Assembly: GCF_019634845.1 (NCBI RefSeq)
Contig: NZ_JAHCAQ010000006.1
Location: 124,001 to 188,000 of the forward strand
DNA from: Dokdonella sp.
Lineage (GTDB): Bacteria > Pseudomonadota > Gammaproteobacteria > Xanthomonadales > Rhodanobacteraceae
Length of the DNA: 64,000 nt
Reading direction: 5' to 3'
Shown: piece after piece, positions 41,901 through 53,167 of the stretch
Numbering within the stretch: the first letter of the stretch is position 1
Layout of the letters: each line of letters starts with the position of its first letter
The notes under the pieces: generated by a model
Told to the model about the DNA's origin: nothing
What the model saw: the letters and a program-made list of their open reading frames with translations, nothing else
Databases searched by the model: none
Position numbers and translations under genes: made by a program

Positions 41901-43616
41901 TCAGTTCGCGTCGAAGCCGTTGGCGAAGAGGACGTCGCTGCTGCTGAATTCGACCACATAACCGGTGCTGCCGCCGCTGACGTCGAGGCGCCAGCCGCGG
42001 TGGTAGGTTTCGTCATCGCCGCTGCGCGTGGTCCAGTCCAGCGCGCTCAACGTGGCGCCGGGCGGTGCCAGCACGCGGATCGTGAGCGGCCCGGCCTGCG
42101 CGGTGCGCCCGCTGATCACGGGCTGCAGCGGCGTGTTGACCTGGAAGGTCGCCGTGCTGCCACTGCCGAGCGTGAAGCTGTCGCTGACGGTGAGCTTGCG
42201 GGCGGCAAAGTCGATCGTGCGCTGCCACCCACCCACGGCCGCGTCGCCGGCGTAGGCTGGCGTGAGGTCGGCCACCGCGTGCACCGCGCCACCCGCGCCG
42301 GGCGTGACGCTCATCGTCGAAGTGGTGCCGTCGCGTTGCGGCACGATGTGGCCGTTGCGCTCGAAGCGCAGCACGTTGTGGGTGTCGGTGCCCTGCTGGA
42401 TGCCGCTGTGGGTCCAGATGTTCTCGGTGACCGCGAGCCAGGTGCCTTCGTAGAGCGTGAACGAGCCCTGGTCCTGGTGGGCATGGCTCTGCAGGTAGGG
42501 GCCGGCCGAGAAGTTGAGCCAGATCGCCGCCGTGTCCCAGCCACTGCGCGCGAACAGCTGCCCGGTGCCGGCGGCATGGTAGACGAGGGCGGTCGGTGCC
42601 ACGGTGTCGGTGCCGGCCGGCAGCAGGTTGTGGCGGTAGTTGAAGCCGCTTTCCATGTCCTGGTCGGAGATGCGGTGCAGCCACCACGCGGCATCGGCGC
42701 GGGCAGCGGCATCGAGGGTCTGTTGGCGCGCCTCCAGCACGAGGTGGCGGTGGTAGTCGTAGATGACGGGCTCGGACACGCGCGCCTGATCGCCGATCGG
42801 CGCGACCTTGTCGCGGGTCGGTACGGTGGCGTGGATCCACCAGCGGATGCTGTCGGTCAGGTGCGCGTTGGCATTGGCCAGGTCGGTGCCGGTCGAATCA
42901 CGCCACAGGCGATACAAGCCGAACAGGCTGCGATGCGACAGGCCGTAGCCGCTGCCTTCCTGGCTGCCGCCGCCGGCAATGGCGGCCACGTAGTCGCGCA
43001 GCGCCGGCAGCTTGTCGGTCGTCAGCAGATTGAGCCAGGTCGTGTCGTTGCTGGCCAGGCCCCAGTACATCGTCGCGGTGACGAAGCTGTAGTAGTAGTT
43101 GTTGGCCGGATCGGTGGTCGCCCAGCCCGACCACGGGAACGCCACGCCGCCCCAGCTCGCCTGCGCGTGGTGCCACACGTTCCACACCGCCTGCTGCGCA
43201 TAGGCAGCCCAGCGCGTGCGCTGCGTGCCGGTGGTGTAGGCCGCGCACCAGTCGTAGGTGAGGGCGAGATCGCCGATCATCGGGCCGACGTGGAGGTAGG
43301 AATCGCCGGCGACTTCGGGGCGTTGCTGGTTGGCGATGGCCTGTTCGGCGGCAACGACCTGGGCTTCGACCGTGGCGACGGCCAGCTGCGCATAGCGCGC
43401 ATCGTTGCTGAGGCGATACATCCAGGCCGCATCGGTGGCCGTGAATCCGTAGCCGGGATTGCCGGCCAGCGCCGCGTCGACGAAGCCCTTGAAGCGTTGG
43501 TACTGCGGCGAGGCCGTGTCGACCCAGGACAGGTCGAGCACGATCGTGGCGCGACACGGCAGCGCCAGCAGCGCCAGCGCGATGCCCAGCAGCCAACGCC
43601 TGTGGATCGGTTGCAT
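41901..43616 (-). CDS. Secreted heparinase II/III-like protein with GFD tail
   Basis: 571 residues from ATG 43616, with GAGGAA about 8 bases upstream. A signal peptide (MQPIHRRWLLGIALALLALPCRA) is followed by an alpha/alpha toroid region (YDWCAAYTTGTQRTRW, NNYYYSFVTATMYWGLA). A beta-sandwich with SHAHQDQGSFTLYEGTWLAV comes next; its HxHxD pattern matches heparinase II/III-type polysaccharide lyases. The C terminus reads SSDVLFANGFDAN, like other secreted proteins in this window. The substrate is unknown; alginate, heparin-like or other uronates are possible. Confidence 0.78.
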   Translation of the reverse strand: MQPIHRRWLLGIALALLALPCRATIVLDLSWVDTASPQYQRFKGFVDAALAGNPGYGFTATDAAWMYRLSNDARYAQLAVATVEAQVVAAEQAIANQQRPEVAGDSYLHVGPMIGDLALTYDWCAAYTTGTQRTRWAAYAQQAVWNVWHHAQASWGGVAFPWSGWATTDPANNYYYSFVTATMYWGLASNDTTWLNLLTTDKLPALRDYVAAIAGGGSQEGSGYGLSHRSLFGLYRLWRDSTGTDLANANAHLTDSIRWWIHATVPTRDKVAPIGDQARVSEPVIYDYHRHLVLEARQQTLDAAARADAAWWLHRISDQDMESGFNYRHNLLPAGTDTVAPTALVYHAAGTGQLFARSGWDTAAIWLNFSAGPYLQSHAHQDQGSFTLYEGTWLAVTENIWTHSGIQQGTDTHNVLRFERNGHIVPQRDGTTSTMSVTPGAGGAVHAVADLTPAYAGDAAVGGWQRTIDFAARKLTVSDSFTLGSGSTATFQVNTPLQPVISGRTAQAGPLTIRVLAPPGATLSALDWTTRSGDDETYHRGWRLDVSGGSTGYVVEFSSSDVLFANGFDAN

Positions 43617-43743
43617 GCGTGGATTCCTCGTTGCCTGGAGCCGGTGCGGGCTGCGCGCGTGACTGCCGGCGCCGCGCTGCGCACATGCTAGCCCACGTCG
43701 GTGCGACCCGAACGCGACCTGTGCCGCACTGTGCGGGCCGCGG

Positions 43744-45543
43744 TCATGGGCGCGGCCAGCGCAGCTCGGCGCAGGTGCCAATACCGTCGGCGCCGGCGCC
43801 GAGGCTGAAACGGCCACCCAGTGCGCGCATGCGCAGCTCGACATTGCGCAGGCCGCGCCCGCCGCCGGCGGCGGGTGCCACGCCACGGCCATCGTCGTTC
43901 ACCGCCAGCACGATCTGGCTGCCTTCGAGCTGTGCCGCCACCTGCAGTGTTCGTGCGCCGGCATGTTGTATCGCGTTGCTGAGCAGTTCCTCGATGCAGC
44001 GGAACAGTTCGGTGAGGCGCCGGCTGCTGCCGACCTTCACTTCGGCGACGGCATCGATTTGCCATTGGCTGCGCATGCCTGCGGCAGCCAGCGGTGCCTC
44101 CATGCGCCGACGCAAAGTCGACAGCGCAGTGCCGAGCGACTGGCAGGAGCCGTCGATCGCATCGATCATCAGACGCAGGTCGAGCAGCGCGCGCTGGATG
44201 TCGGTGGCAAGTTGCGAATGCGGAGTGTGCTGCCGGATCTGCGTCAGCACTGCGAGCAGGCGGGCGCCGAAGCCGTCATTGATGACATCGAGCATGTACT
44301 GCCGCTCGTCGTGTGCGAGCTCGCCCGACACCATGTCCCACACCCGGCCGCTGGCCGCCGGGCTGTTGAGCAGGCTGTCGTCGATGCGGTGTCCGAGCCT
44401 GCGTGCCGCCTGGCCGAGCAGACGCGTGCCGGCGCTGGCGCGACGCGCCAGAAGCACACCGAGCACGATGACGAGCACGGTGGTGCCGAGCGGGTAGATG
44501 CCGATGGTGCTGCGCAGCGGGAACACGAACTTGCTGGTGGTCTCGAGCACCGCGCAGGCGATCGCGAAACCGAGTGCCCAGCGCAGGCTGGTGCGTTCGG
44601 CCAGTGGGGCATGGCGTGCGCGCACGCTGAGCTCGATGATGAGGCCGCCAGCCAGCAGTGCCACTGCGATCCAGTAGCCCAGTTCCCAGTTGGGCGCGCT
44701 GACGAGTCCGGCCAGCGTCATCGCTGTGCGCACGACGATTGCACCGAGCAGCAGCAACGTGCTCCAACGGTGTGCCAACACCGCCCAGAACTGGCACAGC
44801 AGCCGATACATCGCGAACACGAACAGCAACACGCTCAGATCCGACAGCGCCCGCCAGCGGGTGGCATCGAGCGGCATCACGGGGCTCAGCACATACAACA
44901 TGCGACATGCCGCCAGCACGACGCACACGATGTACCAACGCCATATCGGCAGGTTGCGCTGCAGCGACGCCAGCGTCGTGGCGATGAGGCCGAGAATCAC
45001 GAGCAGGGCGAGGCAGGTGGCCGTGATCCCGGTCTGGCGCCACCAGTTGGCGAGCCAGACCCCGTGCAGGGCTGTGCGCTCACCGACGCAGACCTGGCCC
45101 AGCCGGGTGTCACCGAGCGTGCGCGCGACCGGCAGGCGCAGCAGCAACGTGTTGCGACCCTCGCGCAGCGCGTCGTTGGCCAACGGGTGCAGGTGTGGGC
45201 CGCGGCTGCGGTGCTCGTGGCGTGAAAAGTCGACTTCAGGAGTCAGATCACGGCCATTGAGCACGAGGCTGTAGATTGGTGCGGCGTGACTGATGTAGAC
45301 GGCCAGACCGCTGCTCGCAGCCGGCACCTCGAACACATGTTCCAGGCTCAGGGTGCGCGCGCTCGTCGCATCGGCCACGCGCAGCGGCAGGCGTGGTGTG
45401 GTTCCGCTTGCCAGGTCGGTCATGTGCTGGACGCACAGCACGGCCGGCGGCACGCTGTTGCGGTAGAGCAAGGCGACGCCGAGCATCGCCGCCAGCAGGA
45501 CGATTCTGCTCCACCACGGACGGAAGGCGAATGCGGCGGGCAT
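43744..45543 (-). CDS. Histidine-kinase homologue lacking the phospho-acceptor His (Asn422)
   Basis: 599 residues. An N-terminal membrane segment (about 11-27) and a periplasmic beta domain (about 30-165, with LNGRDLTPEVDF) precede about seven membrane helices (about 175-400). The cytoplasmic part begins with RQYMLDVINDGFGARLL: the position of the H-box histidine is asparagine, encoded by AAT at 44278-44280. The ATPase domain is intact, with N-box EELLSNAIQHA (Asn523), G1 box NDDGRG and G2 GRGLRNVELRM. It starts 5 bases after the stop of the paralogous kinase. It should bind ATP but cannot autophosphorylate on this residue. Confidence 0.88.
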   Translation of the reverse strand: MPAAFAFRPWWSRIVLLAAMLGVALLYRNSVPPAVLCVQHMTDLASGTTPRLPLRVADATSARTLSLEHVFEVPAASSGLAVYISHAAPIYSLVLNGRDLTPEVDFSRHEHRSRGPHLHPLANDALREGRNTLLLRLPVARTLGDTRLGQVCVGERTALHGVWLANWWRQTGITATCLALLVILGLIATTLASLQRNLPIWRWYIVCVVLAACRMLYVLSPVMPLDATRWRALSDLSVLLFVFAMYRLLCQFWAVLAHRWSTLLLLGAIVVRTAMTLAGLVSAPNWELGYWIAVALLAGGLIIELSVRARHAPLAERTSLRWALGFAIACAVLETTSKFVFPLRSTIGIYPLGTTVLVIVLGVLLARRASAGTRLLGQAARRLGHRIDDSLLNSPAASGRVWDMVSGELAHDERQYMLDVINDGFGARLLAVLTQIRQHTPHSQLATDIQRALLDLRLMIDAIDGSCQSLGTALSTLRRRMEAPLAAAGMRSQWQIDAVAEVKVGSSRRLTELFRCIEELLSNAIQHAGARTLQVAAQLEGSQIVLAVNDDGRGVAPAAGGGRGLRNVELRMRALGGRFSLGAGADGIGTCAELRWPRP

Positions 45544-45548
45544 GGCAT

Positions 45549-47339
45549 TCAAAACAGTGGCACGCTGAACTGCGCGTACCGCGTCGCTGCGTCCGCGGCG
45601 CACAGCGCGAAGTCGCCGTCGACGGCACCCATCACGCGGTGGACGCGATCGATGGTGGCTGCGCCCCAGTCGCCGCGACCACCGCTGACCACGAAGCGCG
45701 CATGGTGGCGCGAGGCCTCCACGCGGATCGTGAGCGCGGCGCGCGGATCGTGCTCGAAGCACTCGCCGAGCAGCTCCTCCAGGCAGCGGTATACCGCGAT
45801 GAGGCGGTGGCGGTCGCCGATGATGACCTCGTCGATTCCGTCCAGCCGCCAGGCACAGCAGTCGGCGGCCGGTGGATTGGCCTGCTCGATGCGATGCCGC
45901 AGGCGCGCCATCGCGCTGGCGAGCGTGGGCGAGGAATCGTCGAGCGCGTCGAGCATGAGACGCATGTCGACCAGCGCCCGCTGGATCTGCCGCTGCAGTG
46001 CCGTTTCGCCGAGTTCGCGGCGGGCGCGGGCCAGCACGCTCACCAGGCGCGAGCCGAAACCGTCGTGGATGTCGCGCAGCAGACGCCTGCGTTCGCGCTG
46101 GCTGACGCCGGCGGCGACCTCGGCCCACAGCCGCTCGGGTTGCAGCGCCTCGGCCGCGATGGCCTGATCGAGATCATCGGCCAGCGTCGCGGTGGCGGCC
46201 GCCAGCACGTAGCCGCCGACAGCCATGCGGCGAATCAGCAGATAGCCGAGCCCGAGCGCAAGCACCACCGTGGCGAGCGCGCTGCTCCACATCCAACGCT
46301 GTTCGAACGGCAGAACGAAGTAGCCGATCTCAAGCACACCGACCGCGGCCGCATAGGCGAAGATGCCGATCACCACACGTCGTTCCACGCGGTGCATGGC
46401 GCTCGCGTGGCGCACGGTGGCGATTGCGATGGCGGCGCCGTTGATGACGACGATGAGGAGTGGCCCCGCGTCGAGCAGGGCTGAAGGCAGCACGGCGGCG
46501 AGCGGCCCGCGCAGCGCACAACCGGCCAATGCCAGCGCACTGGTCGCGCCGATGAAGTATCCGAGCGTGCGGCTGCGGAACTGCCAGTGTGCACGCATCA
46601 GGTGGTACAGCGCGAGCGGGATCAGCAGCAGGCTCGCATCGTCGAGCCAGATCCACGCCAGCGGTCCACCCGGGCGATACGGCATCGACAGGTACAGGTT
46701 GCGCTCGGCCAGCGGCGTAAGGCACAGCGCATACCACAGGTAGGCGGGCTGGCGGTCGCTGATGAGCCACAGTACAAGCGCCAGCAGCGCCAGCGCGATC
46801 AGCAGCAGCAGGCAGGCGCGCGGCACCAGCACCATGCGCCACCAGTTGGCGCGGAACGCCGGTTCGAGCGCGCTGCGCGCGGCAACGCAGACCTGTTCCA
46901 GCCGCGTCGGCCCAAGTGCTGCGAGCTGCGGCAGCGTGATCCGCAACACGTTGTCGTTTTGACGCAGCAGCTCGTCCGGCAGGAATTGCAATTGCGGCGC
47001 CAGCTCACGGACGTCGCGCGCGGCAAGGTCGATTGCCGGGGTCAGGTCGGCGCCATTGAGTTCGATGCGCGCGAACGGCAAGGCAGCGCCGACCACCAGC
47101 GCCAACGAGGGTCGGGTGGCGCGCGGTGCATCGAAATGGAAGTCGTGGCGCAGCAACGGCACGCCACCTGCGCCGGCGAATCCGGCTGCCTGTGGCGGCG
47201 GGATCGGCAGGCAGTGTGCGTCCGCCGCCTCGCGGTAGCGCATCGTCGCTACGCTCAGCACGACTGCCGCCAGGATGCCGAGCCACCAGCACGCAGCGCC
47301 GAGGCGGCGGGCATGGGCGCGTCCGGCTGCTGGTTGCAT
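45549..47339 (-). CDS. Histidine-kinase homologue with H-box but degenerate ATPase domain
   Basis: 596 residues and a paralogue of the next gene: one N-terminal membrane segment, a periplasmic beta domain (LNGADLTPAIDL), about seven membrane helices, then a HisKA_3-like segment RRRLLRDIHDGFGSRLVSV with phospho-acceptor His425. The ATPase part is degenerate. The N-box reads EELLGECFEHDP, with Glu526 where Asn should be. The G1 box DDGxG is reduced to SGGRG, and the second Gly-rich box is absent. It is probably unable to bind ATP normally. It starts 7 bases after the response-regulator stop. Confidence 0.88.
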   Translation of the reverse strand: MQPAAGRAHARRLGAACWWLGILAAVVLSVATMRYREAADAHCLPIPPPQAAGFAGAGGVPLLRHDFHFDAPRATRPSLALVVGAALPFARIELNGADLTPAIDLAARDVRELAPQLQFLPDELLRQNDNVLRITLPQLAALGPTRLEQVCVAARSALEPAFRANWWRMVLVPRACLLLLIALALLALVLWLISDRQPAYLWYALCLTPLAERNLYLSMPYRPGGPLAWIWLDDASLLLIPLALYHLMRAHWQFRSRTLGYFIGATSALALAGCALRGPLAAVLPSALLDAGPLLIVVINGAAIAIATVRHASAMHRVERRVVIGIFAYAAAVGVLEIGYFVLPFEQRWMWSSALATVVLALGLGYLLIRRMAVGGYVLAAATATLADDLDQAIAAEALQPERLWAEVAAGVSQRERRRLLRDIHDGFGSRLVSVLARARRELGETALQRQIQRALVDMRLMLDALDDSSPTLASAMARLRHRIEQANPPAADCCAWRLDGIDEVIIGDRHRLIAVYRCLEELLGECFEHDPRAALTIRVEASRHHARFVVSGGRGDWGAATIDRVHRVMGAVDGDFALCAADAATRYAQFSVPLF

Positions 47340-47346
47340 CGGCTGC

Positions 47347-47991
47347 TCAGACGAGTCGCTGGCGCCGGGCCTCGAACAGGGCCTGGGCGAGATTGGAGAC
47401 CTGCAGCTTCTCGTACACGTGGCGCACGTGGGTGTAGATCGTCGATGGCTGGGTGCCAGTCAGTTGCGCGATCTGGCGGTAGTTGTGACCCTGCGCGGCC
47501 AAGTGCAGCACCTTGCGTTCGCTGCCGGTGAGTTGCGCGGCCGGTGCCGCCGGTGCGCCGGCCGCGGAGGCTGTGCGTCGCAGCAGGCCGACGAGCCGCT
47601 GCGCGATGGTCGGGCTGATGCACGATCCGCCGGCCAGCGTGATCCCGATCGAATGCGCGATCGTGCTCGCCGGATCGTGCTTGGACACGTAACCGCTTGC
47701 GCCGGCCGTGATCGCCTCGACCACGACGTCCTCGTCGGCGAGCGAGGAAATGACCAGCACGTTCGGCCGTGCCGCGAGCCTGGCTGCGTGGCGGATCGCC
47801 TCGATGCCACTGCCATCGGGCAGCGACAGGTCGGCCAACAACAGGTCGCAACGCTGCGTATCGAGCAGGCGCCGACACTGCGCCACGTGGTCGGCGTCCT
47901 GGATGCTGAAGGGGGGTGGCACGCAGGCGGCAATGGCCTCGTGAACGAGCTGGCGCGCGTCGGGATCATCTTCGAGCACGAGAATGTGCAC
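47347..47991 (-). CDS. NarL/FixJ-family response regulator
   Basis: 214 residues from GTG 47991, supported by a perfect AAGGAGG nine bases upstream; the longer open frame is unsupported. The receiver domain has VLEDD, phospho-acceptor D54 in LLLADLSLPDGSG, a serine in VISSLAD and the lysine in YVSKHDP. The C-terminal LuxR-type helix-turn-helix has LTGSERKVLHLAAQGHNYRQIAQLTGTQPSTIYTHV. It is the first gene of the operon with the two complementary kinase homologues. Confidence 0.93.
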   Translation of the reverse strand: MHILVLEDDPDARQLVHEAIAACVPPPFSIQDADHVAQCRRLLDTQRCDLLLADLSLPDGSGIEAIRHAARLAARPNVLVISSLADEDVVVEAITAGASGYVSKHDPASTIAHSIGITLAGGSCISPTIAQRLVGLLRRTASAAGAPAAPAAQLTGSERKVLHLAAQGHNYRQIAQLTGTQPSTIYTHVRHVYEKLQVSNLAQALFEARRQRLV

Positions 47992-48488: not shown

Positions 48489-49028
48489 GTGACCATGGTC
48501 TTGTCATGTCATTGCGGCGCAAGCCGCGTCCTCGCCACCGGCAAGGCCGTGCTGCATGCGTATTGCCACAGCCAAGTCTGTCGCGAATTGTTCGGTGGCG
48601 CCGTGGTGGCAGTCACGATGTGGCGCGGCGCCGATCTCTCGCTCGCGTCGGGCGCACGGGCAGCAGGCTGCTTCGTGCAGCCGCTGCTGGAGGCAACGCG
48701 GCACTTCTGCGCCGGCTGCGGCAGCACCCTGTTCCTGGTCGATGCGCTCGGGCTGCGCGTGGTGTCGCATGCGCTCATCGCCGCCTCGTACCGCGGCATC
48801 CTGCCGGCGCAGCACGCGCCGACCATGCACCTGCACTACGCGCAGCGCCAGCTCGACATCGACGACGAATTACCCAAACATCTCGAGCGGCCCGGTGGGC
48901 CGCAGTATCAGCCGCGTCCGCCGGTCGCGCCGCTCGCGGTGACGACGCCGTTCGTCGAACGGCGCTACGCGATGCCGGCTGCACCGCGGCGCAGCGGCTT
49001 CAGCGGACCAGGCTCAGAAACAGCGTGA
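48489..49028 (+). CDS. GFA-family (CENP-V/formaldehyde-activating fold) protein
   Basis: 179 residues from GTG 48489, with AGGGAG eight bases upstream; ATG 48495 is the alternative. The zinc-binding pattern is CHCGASR at the start, YCHSQVCREL and CAGCGSTLF later, as in GFA domains, though spacing is not typical of the glutathione-dependent enzyme. The C-terminal 50 residues are Pro/Arg-rich. Function is unknown. The 3' end overlaps the convergent DUF3187 gene by 29 bases. Confidence 0.75.
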   Translation: MTMVLSCHCGASRVLATGKAVLHAYCHSQVCRELFGGAVVAVTMWRGADLSLASGARAAGCFVQPLLEATRHFCAGCGSTLFLVDALGLRVVSHALIAASYRGILPAQHAPTMHLHYAQRQLDIDDELPKHLERPGGPQYQPRPPVAPLAVTTPFVERRYAMPAAPRRSGFSGPGSETA

Positions 49029-49983
49029 CGTCCTGCGCGTGCAGCGCCTGCACGTCCTCGACCAGTCCGGCGCGCAAGGTCCAGCCCGAGCGCATGCGCC
49101 AGCCCGAGGACAGCGCCAGCGTGGTGGCGTCGCGCAGATAGGGAATGCGGCTGTCGTACAGCGCAGCATGCCATTGCAGCTGGGCGCTGGCGTCCCAGGC
49201 CGGGGTCAACTGCCAGCCGAGGGCGACGTCGGCGAACGGAACCAGCCGCTTGCGGCGGGCTGGCAGCAGGTCGCCATCGCCGCGGCGCAGCGCGCCCAGG
49301 CGTGCACCCCATGACAGCGGGCTCTGCGTTGCGGTCGATTGCGCGGCCAGCCACACACTGGCATCGACGGCGCGGTCATCGACCAGCACGCTGGCGCGAC
49401 TGGTGGGCAGTTTGAGCGTGGCGCCGAGCATCCATTCGCTGGCCGCACCGGCCGGCGCGCGCCAGGCGAGATCGACCAGCAGCGGCGTGGCCGCACGCAG
49501 CCTGCGGTCCAGATGCAGGCTGGTGTCCGCGTCGTGGTAGTCGATGACGTGACCATCGCTGCCGAGCTGACCGCGATCGCCATTGCTCAGTCCGAACACG
49601 CGGTGCCAGTCCTGCAGAAATCCGTCGAGGAAGCCATCGTCGAGTGACACCGCCGCGAGCGAGACGCGCGCCAGCCAGTGCTCGCCCAGACCGCGTGTCA
49701 CCGCGATGCGTCCTTCGTGCAGCTCGGCGTCGTAGAGCAGGTGTTCGCTGCCGCGGTCGAACGCCAGTTCGGTGTTGCTGGCGCTGGCGACGAGGTCGAC
49801 GCGCCAGCCGTCGGCGGCCACCGAGGGCGGCGCCAGCGGCAACCCGCCGGCAGCGACGAACGGGTTGGCGTCACGGTAGGGCAGCCACGCCGCGCCAGCC
49901 GCGCGGGCGGCGCCCGGCGCCAGCCACTGCAGGGCCACTGCAAGGCCGGCGGCGGCCAGCGCGCGCGGCACCCGCTCAGCCAT
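49000..49983 (-). CDS. DUF3187 outer-membrane protein
   Basis: 327 residues with a signal peptide (about 1-28). The mature part begins WLPYRDANPFVAAGGLPL, typical of DUF3187. Alternating beta strands follow (ELAFDRGSEHLLYDAELHEGR and many more), ending FLSLVR, consistent with an outer-membrane beta-barrel. It overlaps the RND permease gene by 8 bases and is the last gene of the efflux operon, where an outer-membrane channel is often encoded. A transport role is only inferred. Confidence 0.8.
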   Translation of the reverse strand: MAERVPRALAAAGLAVALQWLAPGAARAAGAAWLPYRDANPFVAAGGLPLAPPSVAADGWRVDLVASASNTELAFDRGSEHLLYDAELHEGRIAVTRGLGEHWLARVSLAAVSLDDGFLDGFLQDWHRVFGLSNGDRGQLGSDGHVIDYHDADTSLHLDRRLRAATPLLVDLAWRAPAGAASEWMLGATLKLPTSRASVLVDDRAVDASVWLAAQSTATQSPLSWGARLGALRRGDGDLLPARRKRLVPFADVALGWQLTPAWDASAQLQWHAALYDSRIPYLRDATTLALSSGWRMRSGWTLRAGLVEDVQALHAQDVTLFLSLVR

Positions 49984-52900
49984 GGCGGTGTGGATCTGCG
50001 GTCTGGCCGAGCGTGGTCTCGGGCGGTTCGAGATGGTCGCCGAGCACGCGCCGCACCGCGACGTAGAACACCGGAATGAACAACAGTCCGAGCAGGGTGG
50101 CGAACAGCATGCCGCCGACCACGCCGGTGCCGATCGCGTGGCGCGAGTTGGCGCCGGCGCCAGTCGACACGGCCAGCGGCAGGCAGCCGAGGATGAATGC
50201 GAACGAGGTCATCAGGATCGGGCGGAAGCGCAGTCGCGCGGCATCGACCACGGCCACCCCGAGTGGGCGCCCTGCGCGCTGTTCGGCCACCGCGAATTCG
50301 ATGATGAGGATGGCGTTCTTGGCCGCCAGGCCGATGATCGTGATGATGCCGATCTTGAAGTAGACGTCATTGGTGAGGCCGCGCGCCATCGTTGCCACGA
50401 GGGCGCCGAGCACGCCCAGCGGCACCACCAGCAGCACCGACAGCGGAATCGACCAGCTCTCATACAGCGCCGCCAGGCACAGGAACACCACCAGCAGCGA
50501 CAGCGCGTACAGGATCGGTGCCTGATTGCCCGAGATGATTTCCTGCAGCGACTGGCCGGTCCAGTCGAAGCCGAAGCCCGTTGGCAGGTCACTGCGGATG
50601 ATGTCCTGCATGGCCTGCATCGCGGTGCCGGAGCTGGCGCCGGCGGCGGGACTGCCGACGATCTCGATCGCGCCGTAGCCGTTGTAGCGGCTCAGCGTGG
50701 GAGGCGCCATGATCCATTGCGACCGGACCACGTTCGACAGTGGGATCATCGCCGGCAGAGGGCTGCCACCGCTCGCGCCGGCTGCGGTCTCGTGACGGGT
50801 GGCGCTGGGCACGAAGAAATGGGACAGCGCCTCGGGCCCCATGCGGAACGGCGCATCGGCCTGCATCGTCACGCGCTGCACGCGACCCTGATTGAAGAAG
50901 TCGTTGGCGTACACCGGCGCCAGCATGAGCTGGATCGCGGTGTAGACGTCACTCAACGACAGGCCCATCGACTGCGCCTGCACGCGATCGACCTGCATCG
51001 ACAACTGGGTGGTCGGCGGCAGGATGTTGGGGCGCACGCCGGTCAGCACGTCGCTGCGTTGCGCCGCCTTGGCCAGCAGCGTGTCCTGCGCCTGCAGCAA
51101 AGCGTCGTGGCCGAGGCCGGCGCGATCCTGCAGGTAGAGGTCGAAGCCGCCGAACTGGCCCAGGCCACGGATCGTGGCCTGGTTCATCACGAATACCTGT
51201 GCGTCAGGGATCGCGGTGGACAGTGCGCCGTTGAGCTGGCGCACCACGGCGGTGGCGACGCGATCGGCCCGGGTGCGCTCGTCCCACGGCTTGAGGCGGA
51301 TGAATGCCATGCCGGTGTTGCTGCCATTGCCGACGAAGCTGAAACCCGACACCGCGATGACGCCTTCCACGGCCGGATTGGCCCGCACTGCCTCGGTGAC
51401 CTCGCGCATGACCTTGCGCGTGCGCTCGATGCTCGCGCCCGAGGGCAGGGTGACGATGCCAAACACCGAGCCCTGGTCTTCCTCCGGCACGAAGCTCGAC
51501 GGAATCTTCCAGAACAGGAATCCGCACAACACGGCGGCAATGACGAATGCCGCCATCCAGCGCGGCGCGTGGCGGATCGCGCTCAGTACGTGACCGGTAT
51601 AGGTCTGCTGCACGCGATTGAACATCCGGTCGAAGGCGCGGTACACGATGTTCTTTTTCTGCTCGTGCAGCGGCTTGAGCAGGGTTGCGCACAGCGATGG
51701 CGTGAAGACCAGGGCGAGGAAGGCCGAGAACGCCGTCGACAGCGCGATGGTCAGGCAGAACTGGCGGTAGATCACGCCGACCGAACCCGACTGCAGTGCG
51801 CTGGGGATGAACACCGCCATCAGCACCACCGCGATCGCCACCACCGCGCCGGTGAGCTGGCCCATGGCCTTGCGCGTCGCATCGCGCGGCGACAGGCCTT
51901 CCTCGCTCATGATGCGTTCGACGTTCTCGATCACCACGATCGCATCGTCGACCACGATGCCGATGACGAGCACCATGCCGAACAGCGTGAGCTGGTTGAT
52001 CGTGAAGCCGGCCAGCCACAGGCCGAGGAAGCCGCCCATCAATGCCACCGGCACCACGAGCAGGGCGATGATCGTCATGCGCAGGTTCTGCAGGAAGATC
52101 AGCATGACCAGGAACACGAGCACGATCGCCTCGCCCAGCGTCTTGATCACTTCGCGGATCGAGAACTGGATGAACGGCGTGGTGTCGTAGGGAACGAACC
52201 AGCTCACGCCGGGCGGGAATGCCGTCTGCAGTTCGTCGAGGCGCGCCTTGACCGCTTCGGCCACGCCGAGCGCATTGGCACCGGTCTGCAACTGCACGGC
52301 GAAGCCGGCCACGCTCTGGTTGTTGTAGGTGACGCTCACGCCGTAGGACGAGGGGCCGAGCTCGACACGGGCAACGTCGCCCAGGCGCACCGTGGTGCCG
52401 TCGGGGTCGCTGCGCAGGATGATGTCGGCGAACTGCGCGGGCGAGGTGAAGCGGCCTTCGGCGGTGACGGTGGCCGAAAAACCGTTGCCGGGTACCGCCG
52501 GCTCGGTACCGAGCGAACCGGCGGCGACCTGGATGTTCTGGTTGCGCACCGCGGCGAGCGCCTGCGCCGCCGACAGGTTGTAGCCGCGCAACTTGTCGGC
52601 ATCGAGCCAGATCCGCATCGCGTATTCCGACCCGAACTGGCGCACGTTGCCCACGCCCGCCACGCGCTGGATCTGCGGGATCACGCTGACCGCGGCAAGG
52701 TTGTTGAGCGCGCCCGAGTCGAGCTTGCCGTCCTCGGACTTGAGCATCGCCACCATGAGGAAGTCGGGGTTCTGCTTGGCGACGACGATGCCCTGCTGCA
52801 CGACCTCGCTGGGCAGGCGCGGCGTGGCCAGCGCGGCCTTGTTCTGGGTCTGCACCTGGGCGATGTCGGCATTGGTGCCCGGGGCGAAGGTCAGCGTGAT

Positions 52901-53167
52901 CGAGGCCGAGCCATCCGAACCGGAACTGGCGCTGAAGTAGCTGAGGTTGTCGATGCCGGTGAGCTGCTGCTCGATGACCTGGGTGACGGCTTTCTCGACG
53001 GTGGCCGCATCGGCGCCGGGGTAGCTGGCCGAGATCACCACCTGCGGCGGCGCGATCGACGGATAGGACTCGATGCCCAGGCGCGTGATGGCGAGCAGGC
53101 CCGCGAGCGTGATGAGGATCGCGATGACGCGCGCGAAGACCGGATGGTCGATGAAGAAATTGGACAT
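49976..53167 (-). CDS. RND efflux permease (HAE1/AcrB type)
   Basis: 1063-residue inner-membrane proton-driven drug exporter. The start MSNFFIDHPVFARVIAILITLAGL, the IAPPQV periplasmic entry, and TM4 with GIVVDDAIVVIENVER (the proton-relay aspartates) are canonical AcrB features. FVPEEDQG and the second repeat with AAKNAILIIEFA are also present. It forms a tripartite pump with the adaptor encoded 31 bases upstream. No OprM/TolC-type outer-membrane channel gene is present in the operon. Confidence 0.95.
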   Translation of the reverse strand: MSNFFIDHPVFARVIAILITLAGLLAITRLGIESYPSIAPPQVVISASYPGADAATVEKAVTQVIEQQLTGIDNLSYFSASSGSDGSASITLTFAPGTNADIAQVQTQNKAALATPRLPSEVVQQGIVVAKQNPDFLMVAMLKSEDGKLDSGALNNLAAVSVIPQIQRVAGVGNVRQFGSEYAMRIWLDADKLRGYNLSAAQALAAVRNQNIQVAAGSLGTEPAVPGNGFSATVTAEGRFTSPAQFADIILRSDPDGTTVRLGDVARVELGPSSYGVSVTYNNQSVAGFAVQLQTGANALGVAEAVKARLDELQTAFPPGVSWFVPYDTTPFIQFSIREVIKTLGEAIVLVFLVMLIFLQNLRMTIIALLVVPVALMGGFLGLWLAGFTINQLTLFGMVLVIGIVVDDAIVVIENVERIMSEEGLSPRDATRKAMGQLTGAVVAIAVVLMAVFIPSALQSGSVGVIYRQFCLTIALSTAFSAFLALVFTPSLCATLLKPLHEQKKNIVYRAFDRMFNRVQQTYTGHVLSAIRHAPRWMAAFVIAAVLCGFLFWKIPSSFVPEEDQGSVFGIVTLPSGASIERTRKVMREVTEAVRANPAVEGVIAVSGFSFVGNGSNTGMAFIRLKPWDERTRADRVATAVVRQLNGALSTAIPDAQVFVMNQATIRGLGQFGGFDLYLQDRAGLGHDALLQAQDTLLAKAAQRSDVLTGVRPNILPPTTQLSMQVDRVQAQSMGLSLSDVYTAIQLMLAPVYANDFFNQGRVQRVTMQADAPFRMGPEALSHFFVPSATRHETAAGASGGSPLPAMIPLSNVVRSQWIMAPPTLSRYNGYGAIEIVGSPAAGASSGTAMQAMQDIIRSDLPTGFGFDWTGQSLQEIISGNQAPILYALSLLVVFLCLAALYESWSIPLSVLLVVPLGVLGALVATMARGLTNDVYFKIGIITIIGLAAKNAILIIEFAVAEQRAGRPLGVAVVDAARLRFRPILMTSFAFILGCLPLAVSTGAGANSRHAIGTGVVGGMLFATLLGLLFIPVFYVAVRRVLGDHLEPPETTLGQTADPHRHG

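Follow-up and report, generated by a model that had tools for sequence, protein, structure and literature searches.

Two paralogous membrane sensors with complementary losses of function: a histidine kinase probably split in trans in the Dokdonella group

Histidine kinases of the DesK/VraS type (HisKA_3) are complete enzymes and function as homodimers. In Mycobacterium tuberculosis two kinase genes lie next to a single regulator gene; of their products HK1 and HK2, one reportedly bears the ATP domain and the other the histidine, and the genes are incomplete and do not encode full-length duplicated membrane sensors. The trio HK1-HK2-TcrA (Rv0600c-Rv0601c-Rv0602c) is named in PMC8965865. We analyzed an operon of comparable arrangement in a 64,000-nucleotide stretch of DNA from Dokdonella sp. 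(NCBI RefSeq assembly GCF_019634845.1, contig NZ_JAHCAQ010000006.1, positions 124,001 to 188,000), referred to here as the window. It encodes a NarL-type response regulator and two membrane histidine kinase paralogues, K1 and K2. The locus quite probably represents a histidine kinase whose functions are shared out between two paralogous membrane sensors of full length; K2 would phosphorylate His425 of K1, most likely in a heterodimer. The pair resembles DesK/VraS-type kinases in the fold of the K2 ATP domain, the HD dipeptide and the NarL-type regulator, but K1 scored below the HisKA_3 cut-off and K2 was not matched by that profile.

An acceptor histidine and an ATP domain on different proteins have been described for CheA3 and CheA4 of Rhodobacter sphaeroides. 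In that account neither protein autophosphorylates alone; the protein with the ATP domain phosphorylates its partner, and the partner in turn feeds a response regulator (PMC3591291). However, CheA3 and CheA4 are of the CheA type, have lost whole domains and are attached to a cluster via P5 (PMC3591291), whereas K1 and K2 are full-length DesK-like membrane sensors that have kept all domains and decayed at the level of residues. Neither K1 nor K2 gave a Pfam match to a P1 HPt or a P5 CheW-like domain. A kinase spread over two genes is also described for Hik36-Hik43 of Synechocystis (a split PilL/CheA), and Hik36, Hik43 and the regulator interact by two-hybrid analysis; that system, however, is a CheA homologue split in two genes and not a pair of paralogous sensors (PMC7656254). 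In DivL-CckA, RetS-GacS and the evolved ChrS-HrrS, a kinase works on or through another kinase, partly by heterodimers, but in these accounts at least one partner can autophosphorylate (PMC9491836, PMC12189002), while neither K1 nor K2 of the window has both an acceptor and an ATP site. For DesK, the closest type with a solved structure, simplified constructs were reported to phosphorylate in trans upon co-expression with an H188V partner (PMC8301901). CpxA is also reported to act in trans and asymmetrically, mostly with a single phosphorylation per homodimer, and the same source states that trans phosphorylation is not generic (PMC3904827).

The original prediction for this locus had held that a genetically split pair of this kind is little or not described. 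This needs narrowing, as the split principle is known from CheA3/CheA4 (PMC3591291) and Hik36-Hik43 (PMC7656254), but no report of a split brought about by complementary decay of full-length membrane sensor paralogues was found among the matches listed in the open-access literature (titles and abstract starts). Judged from the sequences, what appears to be new here is two full-length membrane sensor paralogues with reciprocal decay, together with a relative that keeps an intermediate state.

The open reading frames of the window gave proteins of 596 residues for K1 and 599 residues for K2, which are paralogues with 34% identity across 543 aligned positions. The regulator matched Pfam Response_reg (64.5 bits) and GerE (39 bits), and its phospho-acceptor is Asp54, inside the motif ADLSLPDG. 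No other receiver gene was found in the operon by open reading frames and Pfam. The gaps between the regulator and K1 (7 bases) and between K1 and K2 (5 bases) are so short that the three genes, which lie on one strand, very likely form one transcription unit. These data confirmed the predicted layout of a NarL-type regulator followed by two membrane kinases of the same architecture.

The residues of the two kinases were also as predicted. By motifs and Pfam, the H-box of K1 reads DIHDGFG with His425, while Glu526 replaces the N-box Asn and the Asp of the G1 box and the glycines of the G2 box are missing. K2 has intact N, G1 and G2 boxes, and its H-box reads VINDGFG with Asn422 at the acceptor position. 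Profile alignment of both proteins found HATPase_c in K2 only (34.4 bits, over the cut-off of 26.4) and HisKA_3 in K1 only, where it scored 15.3 bits, under the cut-off of 24; K2 was unmatched by HisKA_3 and K1 by HATPase.

Structure models were made for single chains of K1 and K2, with 11 sequences in each alignment. The mean predicted local distance difference test (pLDDT) scores were 80.9 and 78.3, and the predicted template modelling (pTM) scores were 0.61 and 0.60, respectively. The two models share one architecture, with an N-terminal helix, then a beta-rich domain and seven more long helices, the helices of the dimerisation and phospho-acceptor (DHp) domain, and a C-terminal alpha/beta domain. 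No pair kinase reached the cut-off of 29 bits for 7TMR-DISM_7TM, and one K1 (G120) scored 12.6 bits. Comparison with solved structures by Foldseek gave 286 matches at E ≤ 0.001 for K2, with DesK at the top, and 51 weaker matches at the same threshold for K1. The ATP domain of K2 matched isolated ATP domains, with target-length TM-scores of 0.82 for DesK (3ehg) and 0.78 for VraS (4gt8). In the window pair, motif, Pfam and model all placed the histidine and the ATP site on separate proteins.

We then analyzed how far this pattern extends. A total of 233 genomes of the family was searched with a K2 profile (E ≤ 1e-40, up to five first-look candidates scored per genome). Matches were found in 9 genomes and the K1/K2 pair in 6: four of the Dokdonella group (the window's own, G000, with G085, G109 and G120) and two of Tahibacter (G036 and G065). 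The five relatives are Lysobacterales bacterium PRO2, Lysobacterales bacterium Ru_enrich_XN, Dokdonella sp. ACE_PRO70, Tahibacter aquaticus DSM 21667 and Tahibacter harae P2K; within the window's genus the pair was present in 4 of 16 genomes. In all six genomes the gene immediately before K1 is a regulator orthologue, and the orthologues of the five relatives share the receiver motif ADLxLPDG; K1 in turn immediately precedes K2 in five genomes. In G085 the two genes are on separate contigs, each at a contig end, and K1 is truncated there. Identity to the window proteins was 38-58% for K2 and 40-57% for K1 across the two genera. Samples of 398 order, 369 class and 398 phylum genomes (E ≤ 1e-30, E ≤ 1e-30 and E ≤ 1e-50, at most three first-look candidates scored per genome) yielded no further adjacent K1/K2-like pair; four more genomes of the order sample had two matches each, in each case on two contigs.

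The acceptor position was His in 6/6 K1 proteins and in 0/6 K2 proteins (N, Q, D, D, D, G), so that the loss seen in the window K2 recurs in the five other genomes with an orthologous pair. At the acidic position that follows, all six K1 proteins have Asp and the K2 proteins D, Q, E, E, A, A. All six K2 proteins and two of the six K1 proteins have the N-box Asn (the K1 residues are E, D, E, E, N, N); the G1 Asp likewise occurs in 6/6 K2 and 2/6 K1, and the second G2 glycine in 6/6 K2 and 1/6 K1. Pfam gave the same picture: HATPase_c (PF02518) scored 29.4-46.2 bits in K2, over the cut-off in 6/6, and was not reported in 4/6 K1, with 15.7 bits in T. harae and 22.4 bits in T. aquaticus. HisKA_3 (PF07730) scored 12.0-18.5 bits in K1, under the cut-off in 6/6, and in K2 it had no match at E ≤ 1 in any of the six orthologues. 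The ATP site of K1 is destroyed in four genomes, which lack the N-box Asn, the G1 Asp and the G2 box, damaged in T. harae and intact in its boxes in T. aquaticus. Across the six pairs, histidine and ATP site were fully separated in four, partly in T. harae and not in T. aquaticus.

A usable histidine elsewhere in K2 was also looked for. Inspection of all His columns in residues 396-599 of the six orthologues showed no conserved His in the DHp domain, and the sole His conserved in 6/6 cytoplasmic parts was His527 of the ATP domain, within its N-box region. His411 of the window K2, which is followed by Asp-Glu, was rejected as a substitute acceptor, the other orthologues having Q, G, G, G and S at this position. 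Apart from the His and the acidic residue the K2 DHp domain is conserved, with GFGAR and RALLDLRLM invariant in the six orthologues, which fits a retained dimer interface.

For comparison, 60 distinct relatives outside the six loci were collected as open frames of at least 150 residues matching a K1+K2 profile at E ≤ 1e-10, with identical 300-residue C-termini counted once. All 60 have the His, the Asp after it, the N-box Asn and the G1 Asp; because these relatives were gathered by similarity and are not independent, no probability was attached to the contrast. The exceptions in the other positions were one relative with Trp as the last G1 glycine and one without the first G2 glycine. The former, L098 (G285), has the G1 box DNGRW, the only changed G1 glycine in this set. 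A long-branched relative from the window's genus, L026 (G130), has a 666-residue frame with the H-box HDGIAGQL and DRGRG; it has the acceptor His, the N-box Asn and the G1 Asp and is not part of the split.

The history of the pair was analyzed with a tree of the 12 paired kinases and 20 other relatives. The K1 clade was supported at 100/100, the K2 clade at 92/83, and K1 plus K2 apart from the others at 100/100. A tree of the sensor and membrane part, made without the H-box and the ATP domain and with 10 other relatives, agreed (K1 100/99, K2 86/81, joint clade 100/99), although caution is needed here, since the pair clade is joined by long branches from among the other relatives. The clades point to a single duplication older than the split of the two genera. 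The losses look sequential, with the His of K2 lost first, because K1 of T. aquaticus keeps the N, G1 and G2 boxes. On the simplest reading, the His would have been lost once on the K2 stem, after which the residue drifted, and the K1 ATP site would have decayed later and twice, once in the Dokdonella group and once in T. harae. K1 of T. harae (L037) retains the N-box Asn and the G1 Asp, with DADSG instead of DxGxG and a broken G2 box, and its ATP domain is possibly a case of decay in progress.

Constraint was estimated by the Nei-Gojobori method as the ratio of nonsynonymous to synonymous substitution rates (dN/dS) for three genome pairs, two genes and four domains, with dS values of 0.55-1.39, so that the estimates are rough. 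The ratio was below 1 in 24/24 domain comparisons (0.06-0.83). The DHp domain had the highest identity in five of six gene-by-pair comparisons, the exception being K2 of G000/G085; its retention in K2 despite the loss of the His fits a DHp kept for dimerisation. The K1 ATP domain gave 0.56 and 0.29 in two Dokdonella-group pairs, which fits a folded remnant, and 0.83, near no constraint, in the Tahibacter pair.

Bifunctional HisKA_3 kinases carry a DxxxQ/H phosphatase motif, with Gln or His at position +5 from the acceptor. A Gln or His of this type, four residues after the acidic residue, was absent from the pair, which has Ser in 6/6 K1 and Ala in 6/6 K2; the 60 other relatives have Gly (48), Ser (7), Ala (4) or His (1). 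Phosphatase activity of K1 is not predicted, because its +5 residue is Ser and not Gln or His. In this K1 differs from CheA3, which is also a phosphatase for CheY6-P (PMC3591291). The same source counted 1556 of 42417 SMART HisKA proteins without a HATPase domain, 711 of them with the phosphatase motif and possibly split bifunctional kinases, and derived bistability for bifunctional split kinases, with none for monofunctional ones unless a dead-end complex forms (PMC3591291). We do not claim bistability for K1 and K2, because the phosphatase motif is absent.

Together, these data suggest the following mechanism. After tandem duplication of an intact kinase, K2 would have lost its His, and with K2 supplying the activity the ATP site of K1 would have been free to decay. 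K1 and K2 would dimerise via their DHp domains and membrane parts. The ATP domain of K2, for which intact motifs and a matching predicted fold were observed, would bind ATP and phosphorylate His425 of K1 in trans, most likely within a heterodimer. From His-Asp chemistry and the operon structure we infer that K1 would then pass the phosphate to Asp54 of the regulator. K1-K1 and K2-K2 dimers would be dead, and signalling would come only from the mixed pair and in one direction. The degenerate ATP domain of K1 probably stays as a folded scaffold.

Several points weigh against this explanation. The DHp helices of both kinases were modelled at low confidence, and both DHp domains are divergent from HisKA_3 in all six pairs. 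The set is small, with six pairs derived from one duplication. The K2 clade is not fully supported, and the exact stem of the His loss is less certain than the order of the losses. In T. aquaticus, K1 keeps all three ATP boxes, with HATPase_c under the cut-off, and the pair need not be obligate there; K1 of T. harae may retain some binding, to judge from its residues. Another kinase could in principle be the phosphate source of K1. The split in trans, as originally predicted, is the best reading. Both losses co-occur in the four Dokdonella-group pairs, where the heterodimer would be obligate, but not in T. aquaticus, and the K1 losses of T. harae are only partial.

Four other explanations were weighed. 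One is a variant of the split, whose odds overlap those of the heterodimer: trans-phosphorylation would take place between separate K1 and K2 homodimers assembled into a larger oligomer or cluster, much as CheA4 is reported to reach the P1 domain of CheA3 by transient P4-P1 contact inside a cluster (PMC3591291). This arrangement is unlikely, since the acceptor His lies within the dimerisation helices and both kinases have full DHp domains of common origin, which favours a shared four-helix bundle. K2 could also be a pseudokinase that tunes K1 or another kinase allosterically, with an ATP domain of conformational function only. The evolved ChrS acting via HrrS and DivL acting on CckA are precedents, and in two-hybrid analysis native ChrS formed heterodimers with HrrS, while none were seen for a truncated ChrS form (PMC9491836); K2 of T. 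aquaticus, with an intact K1 beside it, could be such a modulator. K1 of the Dokdonella group, however, has no N-box Asn, no G1 Asp and no G2 box, so another protein must supply the phosphate. Moreover, the catalytic motifs of K2 are intact in 6/6 while its acceptor residue drifts freely, the reverse of what a mere scaffold would show, and we regard a purely allosteric K2 as decidedly improbable.

Proteins of the ChpT/Spo0B type have a His-bearing DHp domain with a dead ATP domain, a description that K1 fits, and K1 is still constrained after the loss of its ATP site. On this explanation K1 would be a phosphotransfer protein fed by another kinase or a receiver, and K2 an unrelated modulator. 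But K1 is a membrane sensor laid out like K2 and adjoins a partner with exactly the missing activity, the operon contains no receiver gene besides the regulator, and among the six pairs the K1 ATP site was lost only alongside a His-less K2 with intact ATP boxes; such a role for K1 seems very improbable. Finally, both genes have lost catalytic residues, as would be expected if the whole system were decaying and both kinases were becoming pseudogenes. Against this, the kinase frames matched in the six genomes contain no stop (K1 of G085 being incomplete at its contig end), the pattern persists in two genera at the identities given above, and the dN/dS estimates are below 1 in all domains, so that general decay is hardly credible.

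The genes next to the operon were also examined. No conserved target gene downstream of K2 is proposed, because the downstream genes differ among the genomes. In the window this gene (41904-43620, minus strand) is heparinase II/III-like, with Hepar_II_III_C (PF07940) at 19 bits, under the cut-off of 24, and a start that resembles a signal peptide by eye. The Tahibacter gene after K2 encodes a beta-helix protein, with one score above the cut-off (26.8 bits) and one below it (22.8 bits); these and the heparinase-like neighbour resemble exported polysaccharide enzymes. In G109 and G120 an MscS-like channel gene follows on the opposite strand, and in G085 three frames were tried, none with a Pfam match. 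Elsewhere in the window, a gene for a DUF3187 protein (49000-49983, minus strand, 66.8 bits) adjoins an RND-type efflux pump gene (49976-53167), the pump being judged from sequence alone. The features of the operon are listed in Table 1.

Table 1. Positions of the regulator, the two kinases and their functional elements in the window.
Feature	Position	Strand	Evidence
Response regulator, receiver and GerE/LuxR helix-turn-helix (NarL type), GTG start	47347..47991	-	Pfam, ADLSLPDG motif, orthologues
K1, membrane histidine kinase paralogue, acceptor kept, ATP domain degenerate	45549..47339	-	Open reading frame, Pfam, alignments, model
K1 DHp helices, approx. residues 401-466	45942..46139	-	Low-pLDDT model (block means 46-61), alignment
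K1 codon of His425 (DIHDGFG), sole putative phospho-acceptor His of the pair	46065..46067	-	Sequence; His in 6/6 K1
K1 degenerate catalytic/ATP domain, approx. residues 473-596	45549..45923	-	Motifs, model, no Pfam HATPase match
K1 codon of Glu526 at the N-box Asn position	45762-45764	-	Alignment
K2, membrane histidine kinase paralogue, ATP domain kept, without acceptor His	43744..45543	-	Open reading frame, Pfam, alignments, model
K2 DHp helices without acceptor His, approx. residues 398-464	44152..44352	-	Low-pLDDT model, alignment
K2 codon of Asn422 at the acceptor position (VINDGFG)	44278..44280	-	Sequence; N, Q, D, D, D, G in six orthologues
K2 intact catalytic/ATP domain, approx. residues 470-599	43747..44136	-	HATPase_c 34.4 bits, fold match, motifs
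K2 N-box N523	43975-43977	-	Motif
K2 G1 box DDGRG, residues 550-554	43882-43896	-	Motif
K2 G2 box GRGL, residues 562-565	43849-43860	-	Motif

If the proposed split is correct, K1 and K2 would make up a naturally occurring heterodimeric sensor kinase that lets phosphate flow in one direction only. It would be a genetically fixed asymmetric dimer with separately mutable halves, comparable to the asymmetric homodimers described for CpxA (PMC3904827). Taken alone, K1 or K2 would be annotated as an inactive kinase, which calls for caution. We lean slightly towards a broader view, in which duplication and complementary decay gave rise to an obligate, one-directional heterodimeric membrane receptor kinase. 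The acceptor would have been lost first, and the K1 ATP site afterwards in the Dokdonella group and separately in T. harae, in a natural series from an independent pair (T. aquaticus) to fully interdependent partners; such a receptor may be a locked asymmetric dimer whose two different sensor domains act as a coincidence detector. The relatives would represent stages, with both functions in K1, partial decay and full decay, and would make the question of how redundant duplicates become interdependent accessible to experiment.

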